Shown one piece after another: positions 20,275-25,215 of a stretch of DNA of 64,000 nucleotides. The notes beneath the pieces are model-generated. The model made no database searches. It saw only the letters and a list, made by a program, of their open reading frames with translations, and was not told where the DNA came from. Source of the stretch: Hyphomonadaceae bacterium (GTDB taxonomy: Bacteria; Pseudomonadota; Alphaproteobacteria; Caulobacterales; Aquidulcibacteraceae); NCBI GenBank assembly GCA_019753105.1, contig JAIELJ010000003.1:124001-188000 (forward strand), in the 5' to 3' direction. Numbering within the stretch: position 1 is the stretch's first letter; every line of letters starts with the position of its first letter. The translations under genes were made by a program, and so were the position numbers.

Positions 20275-21351
20275 TTAGGCGCCTCGCGCCGTGAGGATGG
20301 ACGCTGAAACGTGGCGTTTCGGTGGCGCGGGCACAGAATATCGACGCCGAAGCGAAACGCCATGCTCAGTTTTGGTCCAATGATGCGGCCGAAACATCAA
20401 GGCAAACAACGCTCTATAGGCGGCGATCGAGGAGAGCGGCCAGTAGAACGGCATCGTGAGCGCGGCGCGGGCGTGGCTGAGCGAGTTCGACAGCGCACAC
20501 GCCGTCAGCGCCGCGAAGATCGAGACGCAATAGCCGCAGAGCGCCAGCACAAAGTCAGCCGTGGTGAGTAAATCGTAGGGCAAGATCGCCGCGGCGATCA
20601 GCGCGAGCGCGAGCGGGCCGTGAACGAACGCTGCGATAAGGCCGCTCGTCAGCATCAAATGCATCGCCGCGAACGCGGGCAGGCCCATCTCGCGCGCCGT
20701 GCGGATCGGATCGCGCATCAGCACCAGCCATGTCTGCATGTGGCCCTTGATCCAACGCGTGCGTTGATCGAGCCAGGCGCGCAGCGTGATCGGCGCCTCT
20801 TCCCAAGTTGGTGGCGCGATGACGCCGCTGCTGTAGCCGTCGCGTGCGAGGCGATAGCCAAGGTCGGCATCTTCAGTAACGTTGAACGCGTCCCAGCCGC
20901 CGGAGGCGCGCAGCACATCTGTGCGAAAATGATTGCTGGTGCCGCCAAGTGGAAGCGGGAGCTTGAGATTTGCCAAGAGCGGCAAGAGTTCGCGAAACTG
21001 AATGGCGTATTCAGCAGCGAATTGGCGCGAGATCCACGACGCCTCATAATTGTCGATGACAAGCGGCGCTTGCACGCAGGCCAGTTTTCCACCGCCGCTC
21101 TCAAACGCTGCTAGGGCTGCGCGCAATTGTTGTGGGTGCGGGCGATCCTCGGCGTCGAACACGGTGATGTAGGCGCCGCGCGCGCGGGCGAGGCCGACAT
21201 TGAGCGCCTTGGGTTTGGTGCGCGGCGCCGCGGCGGGGACGATGACGACTTCGATGTGCGCCGCACCGGTGACGGCGAGCGCGGCTGCGATGGTGACGGC
21301 ATCATCGCCCTCAACGAGGAGTTTTACATCGAGCTTGTCGGTTGGATAATC
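20275..21351 (-). pseudogene. Family-2 glycosyltransferase, C-terminal part, interrupted by IS element
   Basis: Frame reads YPTDKLDVKLLVEGDDA...ALNVGLARARGAYITVFDAEDRPHP...TEDADLGYRLARDGY...QRTRWIKGHMQTW; continues from 24758-25215 if the insertion is removed. Confidence 0.9.
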
Positions 21352-21370
21352 CGGACTTATGCCTCAAAGT

Positions 21371-21388
21371 GGTGTCGCAAGTGACACC
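21371..21388. promoter_or_regulatory. GGTGTC-N6-GACACC palindrome at left terminus
   Basis: GGTGTCGCAAGTGACACC adjoining the terminal inverted repeat. Confidence 0.6.
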
Positions 21389-21411
21389 TTTGCCAGGCTA
21401 CGATCCGGCGC

Positions 21412-21840
21412 ATGGAAATCTCCCGCACCGTGGTCACGCTCAAGCGCAAGCGCCGGCTGATCGAAGACACCATCGTCAACTACGAGAAGAAGATCGAAGA
21501 AGCGCGCGCAGACCTGGCGCACGTGGTCGCGGTCATCAAAGTCTTTCAGGCATCGGCGGAGCCGGGAGAGCTTCCGCGTTACGCGGACTTGCATCGTGTC
21601 TTTAAGCGCACCGAGACTGTCGATCTCTGCAAGGAAGCGCTCGCCAAGAAAGGCCCGCAGACCACCATGCAGCTAGCCGTCTATGTGATGGAAGCGCGCG
21701 GGTTAGACGCCACCGACAAGGTCATGCGCCAAGCCGTGGGCTACAAGATCGTTCAGGCGCTGAGGATGCAGCACCTTCGCGGCAAGATCGCGGACGCTGG
21801 CAAAGCCAAGGGCGGGCAGCGGATTTGGGCACTGCCATAG
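21412..21840 (+). CDS. Passenger protein, small hypothetical (coiled coil plus winged-helix-like)
   Basis: 142 aa ORF inside the IS; MEISRTVVTLKRKRRLIEDTIVNYEKKIEEARADLAHVVAVIKVF... Confidence 0.65.
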   Translation: MEISRTVVTLKRKRRLIEDTIVNYEKKIEEARADLAHVVAVIKVFQASAEPGELPRYADLHRVFKRTETVDLCKEALAKKGPQTTMQLAVYVMEARGLDATDKVMRQAVGYKIVQALRMQHLRGKIADAGKAKGGQRIWALP

Positions 21841-21850
21841 AAGCCCCCTT

Positions 21851-21873
21851 GCCACCCGCGTTCTGCGGGTGGC
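21851..21873 (+). terminator. Hairpin between passenger genes
   Basis: GCCACCCGC-GTTCT-GCGGGTGGC perfect 9-bp stem; U-tract absent. Confidence 0.4.
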
Positions 21874-21884
21874 GCGGCGTGGCT

Positions 21885-21983
21885 TTAGCAGTCGCGCGGC
21901 TTGCCGCGCTTGTGCGGCTTCACCGGAACGACCTTCGGCGCCTTGTTAGGCGTCGGACATCCGCAACCCTTCTTCTGTGACAT
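21885..21983 (-). CDS. Candidate 32-aa cysteine-containing small protein
   Basis: MSQKKGCGCPTPNKAPKVVPVKPHKRGKPRDC*; ATG to TAA, below the ORF-track size cut-off. Confidence 0.35.
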   Translation of the reverse strand: MSQKKGCGCPTPNKAPKVVPVKPHKRGKPRDC

Positions 21984-22264
21984 GGTAGATAGTCCCTAGC
22001 GGTGGCTAGCCCGCCGGTGCGTAATCAGTGCTAGACTACGCAGATTGGGAATCGTCGCGTCTAGCCACGCGACGACTGCAAACCAGGGACGGCGTGCCTC
22101 TTTTGATCGGGACGGCGCGCCGTTTCGTTTGCAGCGCGCCAATTATGACGCAACATCCGGCATCGAGTCTCACGAGATATTTGTCGAAGTTCAGTGGCTT
22201 GCGCGGCGTCGATTCACGAATGAGAAATGTTGTTGAGTCCGCGAATCGACTGTCCTGACCGCAC

Positions 22265-23245
22265 CTAGGCCTTGTGCCGTTGCGTGTAGCCAGTGAAATC
22301 CACGCTCGGCTTGCTGGAGAGTGCCAGCGCCGCGACGCGCTTCACTTGATCGCCGTTGCTGACGCGGCGGTTGTCTTCACGCCACGCCGCCTCTTGCGCG
22401 AAGCGCAGCAGGTACGGGCCGGCGACGTGGTGATGATGGCCAATCTCGCCACGGCGCATGCGGCTAAAGAAGCTCTCCGCGGCGTTCGTGCAGGCTTGGC
22501 CGTCGCTGTAGGCCTCTTGGTGATTTATGCGGTGAACTTGATAGCGCTCGTGAAGCGCGTTCCAGCTTCCGGCTTCATCGGCGTGCAGGATGGTTTCGCG
22601 CTTCACGCGCTGCTTGATGAAGCCGATCGCTTGGCCTTCTGACGAAAACACGCCCGGCAGCGTCTTGCCGCCGCGCTCACGCACGATCACAACCCATTTA
22701 CGCTTGCCGGATTGGTTCGCGGCAAGGCGCCGGTCGCGGCGGTTCTCGCGGAAGTTGGCGGGGCGCACGTGGCCACCGAACGCCGCGCCGTCCGTTTCGG
22801 CGATGATGCCGGGGCCACCGATCTCGCGGCCCTTCATTTCGGCCGCCATGCTCTCGCGCAGCTTGTGCGCCAAAACAAAGCTGGTCCGGTACGTCGAGCC
22901 TAGATCCCGCGACAGCGCGAGCATGCTCTTGCCTTTCACTTCATTGCAGAAGAGCGCGATGGCCAGCAGGTACTGCTTGAACGTCATCTTGCGCGAGGCA
23001 AACAACGTCCCGCTCGTGATTGAGAAATTCTTGTTGCAGCCCTTGCAGCGAAACATGAGCAAGCCGGTGGGGCGGCGCGTTTCGTAGGCGTCGAGGCAGC
23101 CGCAGCGCGGGCAAACCGGAGCGCCCTCCGTTTCCGGCCAACGCAGGTGGCGGAACGTCATCTCCGCTTGCGCGTCGCTCATCGCGCAGACTTGCGCGAT
23201 GCTGAGGCTCTTGGCCTGGCGCTGGAGGAGAAAGTGTTGGGCCAT
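22265..23245 (-). CDS. IS1595-family (ISXO2-like) transposase
   Basis: N-terminal zinc-ribbon CPRCGCLDAYETRRPTGLLMFRCKGCNKNFSITSGTLFASRKM; catalytic-domain AETDGAAFGGHVRPANFRENRRDRRL, HADEAGSWNALHERY, AAESFFSRMRRGEIGHHH. Confidence 0.95.
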   Translation of the reverse strand: MAQHFLLQRQAKSLSIAQVCAMSDAQAEMTFRHLRWPETEGAPVCPRCGCLDAYETRRPTGLLMFRCKGCNKNFSITSGTLFASRKMTFKQYLLAIALFCNEVKGKSMLALSRDLGSTYRTSFVLAHKLRESMAAEMKGREIGGPGIIAETDGAAFGGHVRPANFRENRRDRRLAANQSGKRKWVVIVRERGGKTLPGVFSSEGQAIGFIKQRVKRETILHADEAGSWNALHERYQVHRINHQEAYSDGQACTNAAESFFSRMRRGEIGHHHHVAGPYLLRFAQEAAWREDNRRVSNGDQVKRVAALALSSKPSVDFTGYTQRHKA

Positions 23246-23250
23246 TTGTA

Positions 23251-23268
23251 GGTGTCATATTAGACACC
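23251..23268 (-). promoter_or_regulatory. Palindrome GGTGTC-N6-GACACC overlapping candidate transposase -10 box
   Basis: Minus strand TTGACT-N16-TAATAT (-35 23284-23279, -10 23262-23257); the palindrome arms flank the -10. Confidence 0.6.
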
Positions 23269-23289
23269 CCCTGGACAAAGTCAAGAGAT

Positions 23290-23307
23290 GGTGTCATTAA
23301 AGACACC
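23290..23307 (+). promoter_or_regulatory. Palindrome GGTGTC-N6-GACACC overlapping candidate promoter of DUF6471-like gene
   Basis: GGTGTCATTAAAGACACC; candidate TGGACA (23272)-N17-CATTAA (23295). Confidence 0.55.
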
Positions 23308-23308
23308 C

Positions 23309-23551
23309 ATGGGATTCGCAAAAAATGAAGCGGAAATCGCCGAGCGCGTGCGGCTGTTCATAAAGGCCGAGCTGGAGCGGCTGGAATGGACGCATGAACG
23401 CTTGGCCAAAGAAATGAAGCGGCACGGCCACCCGAACGAGAGCGCCGAAAGCATCAAGCAGAAGTTGAAACGCGGCACGTTCTCGGCGACGTTCTTCCTA
23501 GCGGCCATAGCGGCGCTGGGGCATGAGCATGTCGCGTTGGACGAAATCTAA
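23309..23551 (+). CDS. DUF6471-like small putative DNA-binding protein
   Basis: MGFAKNEAEIAERVRLFIKAELERLEWTHERLAKEMKRHGHPNESAESIKQKLKRGTFSATFFLAAIAALG; helix-turn-helix-like; start moved from 23288 because the upstream ATG lies in the palindrome. Confidence 0.7.
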   Translation: MGFAKNEAEIAERVRLFIKAELERLEWTHERLAKEMKRHGHPNESAESIKQKLKRGTFSATFFLAAIAALGHEHVALDEI

Positions 23552-24644
23552 CTGGCGTTGGTTAGGCTTCAGCCTGATCGGGTTTCTTCTCGGCGCGCTC
23601 TTGATTGCGGGCGCCTTGGAAGCGGCCTCAAAAGAAAGTCCCGCCTGCCAGCAATACACCAAACAGGTACGCTCCGAAGCCGAGCCGCTTCCGGCGACTG
23701 AAGGCCACGAGCAACCCACCCACAACAGCGAGGCCGAAGCCAACGAGTCCGAGGGCCATTTCTGTTATCGCGGACACACAGCCGAGGAATGGATAGGAAT
23801 TCTCACGGCAGCCCTCGCCGGCTTCACTTGGCTCTTGGCGATGGCTACCGCCGCCCTGTGGCTTGACGCTCGTGCTAACGGGGAGAAGCAAGTTAAGGCT
23901 GCCGCCCTGAATTTGCGTATCGCGCACCGCCAGTTGCAAACCGCTCAAGCGAGCACCGCTGAGCAACTCGCTATAGCAAGAAAATCGGCTGAGGCCGCTG
24001 AGCGGGCATCCTTCCGAAACCGCGCTTGGGTATCGGTCGAGTTCATCAAATGGAAGCGGCTGCACCGCTATCTGCATTTCGATTATCGGTTCGCGGTCGA
24101 TGACGTGACCATCCGACTGAGAAACGTGGGGCAGACACCAGCCACAATCATCTCTGTCGACGCTGATGTTTACTGGACTCAACGCGGAGCCCCAGCGCCC
24201 GGCGCCAATCTTGATCCATCGGTAGAAGGTGCGGATGCGGCCAAGCAAGTTTGGGCATCCCCATTCATGCTCCAGAGTGTGATGCCGCCAATCGTTTTTC
24301 CAACCAGCTCCGATCAAATCACTCGCCCCGCCGATCAGCCGGCGTTCATGGGAGAGTCGGATCGCGACCCTCTCGACGGCGCCACTGCAAACCCCATCAT
24401 TCTCGAAGCTGGTCAGACGATCGAACCCTTGGTCGCGGAGACTTTCCAGTTCGACGGCGTCCAAAACGGCAAGGAGATTGGCGAAAACGCCCTCATTGCC
24501 GCAGCGACGTTCTTGCGCGTCACCGTGAGGTATAGAGACGTCTACCAGATGGACCGCGAAACCGTTTATTTCGCTCGCATCTGGGGGATATCCGCCACGC
24601 GTGTCCGCAAAGAGATTCACGACAGGGTGAACCGTCAGACTTAG
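23523..24644 (+). CDS. Passenger membrane protein of unknown function
   Basis: TM segments LGFSLIGFLLGALLIAGALE and IGILTAALAGFTWLLAMATAALWL, coiled coil, soluble C-terminal domain. Confidence 0.7.
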   Translation: MSMSRWTKSNWRWLGFSLIGFLLGALLIAGALEAASKESPACQQYTKQVRSEAEPLPATEGHEQPTHNSEAEANESEGHFCYRGHTAEEWIGILTAALAGFTWLLAMATAALWLDARANGEKQVKAAALNLRIAHRQLQTAQASTAEQLAIARKSAEAAERASFRNRAWVSVEFIKWKRLHRYLHFDYRFAVDDVTIRLRNVGQTPATIISVDADVYWTQRGAPAPGANLDPSVEGADAAKQVWASPFMLQSVMPPIVFPTSSDQITRPADQPAFMGESDRDPLDGATANPIILEAGQTIEPLVAETFQFDGVQNGKEIGENALIAAATFLRVTVRYRDVYQMDRETVYFARIWGISATRVRKEIHDRVNRQT

Positions 24645-24723
24645 CGCTAACAGCGCTCCGATAATCCCCATAACGCATGTGTTCCTTCACATGCGGACCT
24701 GTGCATCGGGTGGACAATCCACC

Positions 24724-24741
24724 AGTGTCACTTTTGACACT
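24724..24741. promoter_or_regulatory. AGTGTC-N6-GACACT palindrome at right terminus
   Basis: AGTGTCACTTTTGACACT adjoining the terminal inverted repeat. Confidence 0.6.
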
Positions 24742-24757
24742 TTGAGGCATAAGTCCG

Positions 24758-25215
24758 GGATGATCGAGCGCGCTGATTGCCGCTACGAGGTCAGGGACGA
24801 CCTTTGCTTCGCGATAGAGCGGGCAGAGAACAGTGTAGATCGGCCAATCCACCGGATCAGCGAGGCGCGTGAGGGTCGGTTGCAGTTGTGCCGCGGCAAT
24901 GAACCGAAAAATGATCACAAGAGCGAAAAGCGCCAGCGCCGAGATGTGAAGCACTGCGAACGTCAGCGCAGGCGTCTCCACGAGCGCACAGACCAACCCG
25001 CTGATCAGCGCCGCGAACGTCAGCGCCTGCGTCACGAATAGGACGCGCTCGGCGGATCGTTGTGGGAATTGCTCGCGAAAGCCGAAGCGTGCGGCGTCGA
25101 GCTCTTCCGCGCTGACGGAGGCGCTCGCCTCCACCAGCCGGTCCATTCGCGGTTGCGCCCCGTCCATCGGCATCGACGGATGAAAAGGCCGACCAAGCGC
25201 CTTACTAACAAGCAC
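24758..25215 (-). pseudogene. Family-2 glycosyltransferase, N-terminal part, interrupted by IS element
   Basis: TM region and ADPVDWPIYTVLCPLYREAKVVPDLVAAISALDHP, then element sequence; rejoins with YPTDKLDVKLL at 21351. Confidence 0.88.

Follow-up and report, generated by a model that had tools for sequence, protein, structure and literature searches.

Predicted repressor operators at the divergent promoters and at both ends of a DUF6471-bearing IS1595-family transposon

The stretch of DNA analysed here (the window; 64,000 nucleotides of a Hyphomonadaceae bacterium contig, in whose coordinates all positions are given) contains a 3.4-kb mobile element at 21352-24757 bounded by matching terminal inverted repeats (TIRs), the 20-bp ends CGGACTTATGCCTCAAAGTG being identical between its left and right tips (Table 1). 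This element belongs to the IS1595 family of transposons and interrupts a glycosyltransferase gene. The reading frame of that gene is restored when the flanks are joined, and most relatives of the same genus have the resulting protein in uninterrupted form. The target site duplication (TSD) of 8 bp matches at 7/8 positions here and at 8/8 in most relatives. An earlier sequence-only reading of this DNA had described an IS1595-like element, and this is borne out by the TIRs, the TSD and the transposase, in which a DDE_Tnp_IS1595 domain and an N-terminal zinc ribbon (Zn_ribbon_IS1595) are both present. Insertion sequences of the IS1595 family are alike in this transposase architecture, in their short TIRs and in the 8-bp TSD. 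They usually carry a single transposase gene (PMC8101967), whereas the clade described here has a dedicated, predicted divergent repressor, operators and cargo. These extra genes do not exclude membership of the family, as the wording of the source is 'usually' (PMC8101967).

Table 1. Annotated and predicted features of the element, in window coordinates
Feature	Position	Strand	Basis or remark
Left TSD GGATAATC	21344..21351		7/8 pairing with 24758-24765 GGATGATC
Left TIR CGGACTTATGCCTCAAAGTG	21352..21371	+	reverse complement of 24738-24757
Left terminal operator GGTGTC-gcaagt-GACACC	21371..21388
Putative accessory protein, 142 aa	21412..21840	+	ORF; sub-threshold SBDS_N Pfam match; tblastn
IS1595-family transposase, 326 aa	22265..23245	-	PF12762 1.3e-31, PF12760 1.4e-9; NF033547 above cut-off
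Operator O1 GGTGTC-atatta-GACACC	23251..23268		spacer is the transposase -10 (TAATAT on - strand)
Transposase promoter TTGACT-N16-TAATAT	23257..23284	-	promoter scan; near-leaderless
Putative DUF6471 promoter TGGACA-N17-CATTAA	23272..23300	+	read by eye from sequence
Operator O2 GGTGTC-attaaa-GACACC	23290..23307		ends 1 bp before DUF6471 ATG
DUF6471 protein, 80 aa, predicted XRE/434-repressor-like regulator	23309..23551	+	PF20075 1.2e-15; model; Foldseek
ORF of 373 aa, cargo, membrane-protein-like	23523..24644	+	ORF; start possibly internal
Right terminal operator AGTGTC-actttt-GACACT	24724..24741
Right TIR	24738..24757	-	identical to left TIR as reverse complement
Right TSD GGATGATC	24758..24765		pairs with left TSD GGATAATC

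Homologues of the 142-aa protein encoded at the left end, roughly 27-55% identical in tblastn searches, occur in about 20 related elements, XRE-type ones among them, suggesting that this protein may have a conserved accessory role and not be cargo. The 373-aa ORF had no family match in profile searches, and searches against PHROGs were likewise empty for this cargo and for DUF6471. The DUF6471 protein, initially described as a passenger, is better regarded as a core regulator of the element than as cargo, which makes the original term a misnomer.

Four palindromes with perfect GTGTC/GACAC half-sites and 6-bp spacers, already pointed out in the sequence-only reading and confirmed at precisely its coordinates, are present at the two ends of the element and between the divergent transposase and DUF6471 genes. 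There is no fifth exact GTGTC-N6-GACAC match within the window, and 4 of the 7 exact sites in the 3.87-Mb genome are inside the 3.4-kb element (3 lie elsewhere), against about 0.003 expected per 3.4 kb. This genome-wide rarity rules out chance as the origin of the palindromes. The terminal sites had been placed just inside the TIRs, and they are indeed near the inner border, but they are not wholly inside it, overlapping the 20-bp TIR by 1 bp on the left and 4 bp on the right. Similarly, the location of the internal sites at the intergenic region was correctly described, but they do more than flank it, as each holds the -10 box of one of the divergent promoters. The transposase ATG lies 5 bp beyond the O1 palindrome. 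The DUF6471 gene has its likely -10 within O2, and its putative promoter was missed by the strict promoter scan. Comparison with L109, the closest relative (transposases 83% identical), shows the half-site bases of the four sites to be identical at 40/40 positions and the spacers at 14/24 (Fisher p = 1.3e-5), a pattern of half-site conservation with spacer drift that fits what is expected of protein-binding sites.

In searches by sequence, DUF6471 is matched by PF20075 alone and by none of the helix-turn-helix (HTH) family models, and a PDB sequence-profile search with the DUF6471 alignment returned insignificant, unrelated matches only. The AlphaFold2 model (pLDDT 94, built from 66 aligned homologues) has four helices, at residues 7-24, 29-38, 46-55 and 60-69. 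Its Foldseek match list consists mostly of XRE-type proteins, though with weak E-values, and is headed by the phage 434 repressor, HipB, C.Esp1396I and ClgR (TM 0.56-0.69, best E-value 0.41). The fold is predicted with high confidence to be of the phage-434/XRE repressor type, including the helix-turn-helix. What is claimed from the model is that DUF6471 works like an XRE repressor, not that it belongs to that family by sequence.

The element was compared with about 100 related elements, drawn from 200 genomes of the order and from 80 loci added by a genome scan, most of the latter from Alphaproteobacteria. In the 200 genomes, nearly all transposases of at least about 42% identity adjoin a DUF6471 gene and those of roughly 30% identity mostly do not; DUF6471 is also found beside most of the 80 added loci. 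At 14 loci without DUF6471 (L144-L148, L151-L153, L156, L159, L165, L167, L174 and L178) a small XRE-type regulator occupies the same divergent position, and the one member of this group that was scanned matches phage transcriptional regulators. As judged from these sequences, this is a swap of regulator, from DUF6471 to a plain XRE protein, within one transposon clade. Three compact elements (L125, L139 and L140) are devoid of any regulator, and no palindrome was found in them. The 90 non-redundant DUF6471 intergenic regions contain 72 perfect N6 palindromes with 5-bp arms, where 11.4 are expected from shuffles, with even gaps (4, 6 and 8) enriched and odd gaps much less so. The half-sites differ by lineage (GTGTC, GTCTC, CTATC, CCATC, TCATC, TCACC and AGTAC), GTGTC being shared by this element, L109 and L149. 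The XRE elements have the operator CAACG-N5-CGTTG, with 17 gap-5 palindromes against 1.6 expected. L127, from Bradyrhizobium altum, keeps CTATC-like promoter operators in the absence of a DUF6471 gene, probably reflecting either a recent loss of DUF6471 or regulation in trans by another copy.

Across these elements, in permutation tests that ignore phylogeny, operator similarity is correlated with DUF6471 identity when transposase identity is controlled (partial Mantel 0.288, p = 0.001), whereas no such correlation is seen with transposase identity once DUF6471 is controlled (partial Mantel 0.050, p = 0.194). Because the operator follows the identity of DUF6471 and not that of the transposase, the regulator is the likely binder of the palindrome. 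This agrees with the original proposal that a single DNA-binding protein recognises the promoter and both ends, which comparison of the elements makes probable, with DUF6471 as the better candidate. The alignment columns most linked to the operator include residue 47, which lies in the predicted recognition helix (46-55). Residue 50, in the same helix, is K where the sites are perfect GTGTC or GTCTC, E in 6/8 TCACC elements and T where they are perfect CTATC. These links between residues and operators are correlations and are inflated by relatedness.

The presence of operators at the ends was assessed with a strict test, defined as an N6 palindrome at both ends matching the element's own promoter operator in at least 9/10 half-site bases. 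Such sites occur at both ends in 8/99 elements, namely this element (W), L109, L074 (whose left end is a contig end), L077, L216, L217, L218 and L220, and at one end in three more. The eight form two clades, W+L109 (support 100/100) and the TCACC clade (100/99), which are separated in the tree by many elements without terminal sites. In this element and L109, the only two members of the GTGTC clade, and likewise in the TCACC clade (6-8 elements with end sites), the half-sites at both ends agree with the own promoter operator at 10/10 bases. The terminal-site label requires three changes on the tree, which could be two gains and a loss or one gain followed by losses; separate gains are favoured, since the two clades use different operator sequences. 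In the Methylobacteriaceae, the ends of the XRE-type elements L144, L165 and L167 share GCGTTGAGGTGA or a close variant with their own promoter operator. A model-free comparison of each own intergenic region with its own ends, in which phylogeny is ignored, gave 16.37 against 14.36 (sd 0.20) for permuted pairs, with 0/2000 permutations as high. An own-versus-other rank test over all elements was not significant overall (KS p = 0.60), because terminal sites occur in only two lineages, and the claim of terminal sites is carried by the per-lineage result and the model-free test. The sequence comparisons thus indicate that the operator at the ends is a lineage-specific feature, present in at least two clades. 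A universal coupling of DUF6471 with end palindromes is not borne out as a general rule, as most relatives keep DUF6471 and the promoter operator with no copy at the ends, an outcome that the sequence-only reading had itself named as counting against it. It follows that the family can move and be regulated without terminal operators. The palindrome was also considered as a general TIR feature of the family and rejected, most TIRs being without it.

The reading that we prefer, with a probability of about 0.7, is that a DUF6471 dimer represses the divergent promoters and brakes transposition at both tips. DUF6471 would be a small dimeric repressor of the XRE/lambda-434 type whose dimer binds GTGTC-N6-GACAC. 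Bound at 23251-23268 and 23290-23307, the dimer would cover both divergent -10 boxes, resulting in repression of the transposase and of its own gene. At the tips, the same dimer would overlap the inner edge of the TIR and probably hinder transposase binding or the pairing of the ends. Occupancy of the ends would in this way be a second, direct brake, and the fall in repressor level that frees the promoters, as when the element enters a new cell, would release it as well. The sites, their positions at promoters and ends, their conservation and their covariation with DUF6471 are directly observed, and from these we infer binding, repression and the role of a brake rather than a helper at the ends.

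DUF6471 might instead bind the promoter and the ends in such a way that the end copies aid transposition, as an architectural or synapsis cofactor or as a mark of the ends. At either end the sites do stand in fixed register with the tip, beginning at TIR +19 in complete members of the TCACC clade and lying at +21/+18 in this element, and the TCACC clade often has a second left-end copy at +40 to +53, the kind of asymmetry that typifies assembly sites. However, most relatives with the same regulator are without terminal sites, which argues against a general requirement, and the overlap with the inner edge of the TIR favours occlusion, so that a helper role appears unlikely. It is considerably more doubtful that the transposase itself binds all four sites, in the manner of insertion sequences whose transposase represses its own promoter. 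The transposase must bind the ends, and the terminal sites overlap the TIR, but many different promoter palindromes are found beside near-identical TIRs (elements with the common TIR CGGTATTATGGCGCAAACGCCAC have promoter operators that differ widely), the operator does not track the transposase after accounting for DUF6471, the elements without a regulator are also without a palindrome, and a change of operator accompanies the regulator swap. Of the two binders that the sequence-only reading had allowed for, the transposase is the less likely. About as improbable is that the terminal copies are ordinary operators for genes transcribed at the element ends with no role in transposition: although the left site is directly upstream of the 142-aa ORF, which starts 24 bp after it, and TCACC-clade elements commonly have extra copies at the left end, the right end has a site too, almost equally far from its tip, and the strict promoter scan found no sigma-70-like promoter inside either end.

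Control of transposition by a repressor and overlap of operators with ends have precedents in phage Mu, IS30 and IS911, and the transposase itself is an ordinary member of the IS1595 family. The arrangement proposed for DUF6471 resembles the cI-Cro (XRE) switches of phages 434 and lambda in the predicted fold, the divergent promoters and the small N6 dimer operators, the 434 operator being ACAA-N6-TTGT with the same N6 spacing. It differs from them in that operators are also found on the transposition ends, and in that DUF6471 matches no HTH sequence model. Phage Mu offers a parallel in that a single regulatory system of protein and DNA acts on transcription control as well as on the transposition machinery. 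However, the operator of Mu is an enhancer inside the element, and its repressor has a DNA-binding domain in common with the transposase, whereas in the transposon described here the ends carry the operator itself, and regulator and transposase are unrelated. The C proteins of type II restriction-modification systems, such as C.Esp1396I, are similar as a structural match and as small autoregulators of a mobile module, but they control restriction genes and are not known to have sites at the ends of a mobile element. IS30 and IS911 couple end recognition with transposase expression, their transposase or OrfA acting as repressor of a promoter within or close to the inverted repeat; there the transposase or its fragment does the coupling, in contrast to the separate repressor predicted here.

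In a literature search, which is not proof of absence, DUF6471 was named in no paper found, and no description was found of a repressor acting on both promoter and ends. As far as the literature searched shows, the assignment of DUF6471 as the regulator, its interchange with XRE proteins and the recurrent operator at the ends are new. At somewhat better than even odds, a dedicated XRE-like repressor has, inside a single transposon family, repeatedly been given a second job through operators on the tips, so that one diffusible protein would gate both transposase synthesis and the competence of the ends, with an operator code that co-evolves with the recognition helix; DUF6471 would account for at least two such events, and an XRE regulator unrelated to it by sequence probably for one more. 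DUF6471 thereby gains a concrete, testable function as the candidate repressor of a large clade of IS1595-type transposons in Alphaproteobacteria, and a design of transposon control in which a separate repressor acts on promoter and ends appears to have arisen more than once. In addition, about 100 natural operator/repressor pairs, each within one element, are useful toward a DNA-recognition code for XRE-like proteins.

Some further observations concern the ends and the insertion sites. In L087, L092, L158, L173 and relatives, operator-like words are found at the left end only, at about +30 to +60, and these may be regulated cargo promoters. The spacer of the left terminal operator in L109 is TAATAT, a -10-like hexamer that is the same as in the transposase operator of the present element, and an outward TTGACA is present in the right ends of both elements; judging from these motifs, a junction or outward promoter is conceivable. 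The two elements have also hit orthologous glycosyltransferase genes at the same LDYP codons, with orientations opposite to each other, and are therefore independent insertions. A third IS1595 element (L223, G217:C55) appears to break the same glycosyltransferase gene further on.
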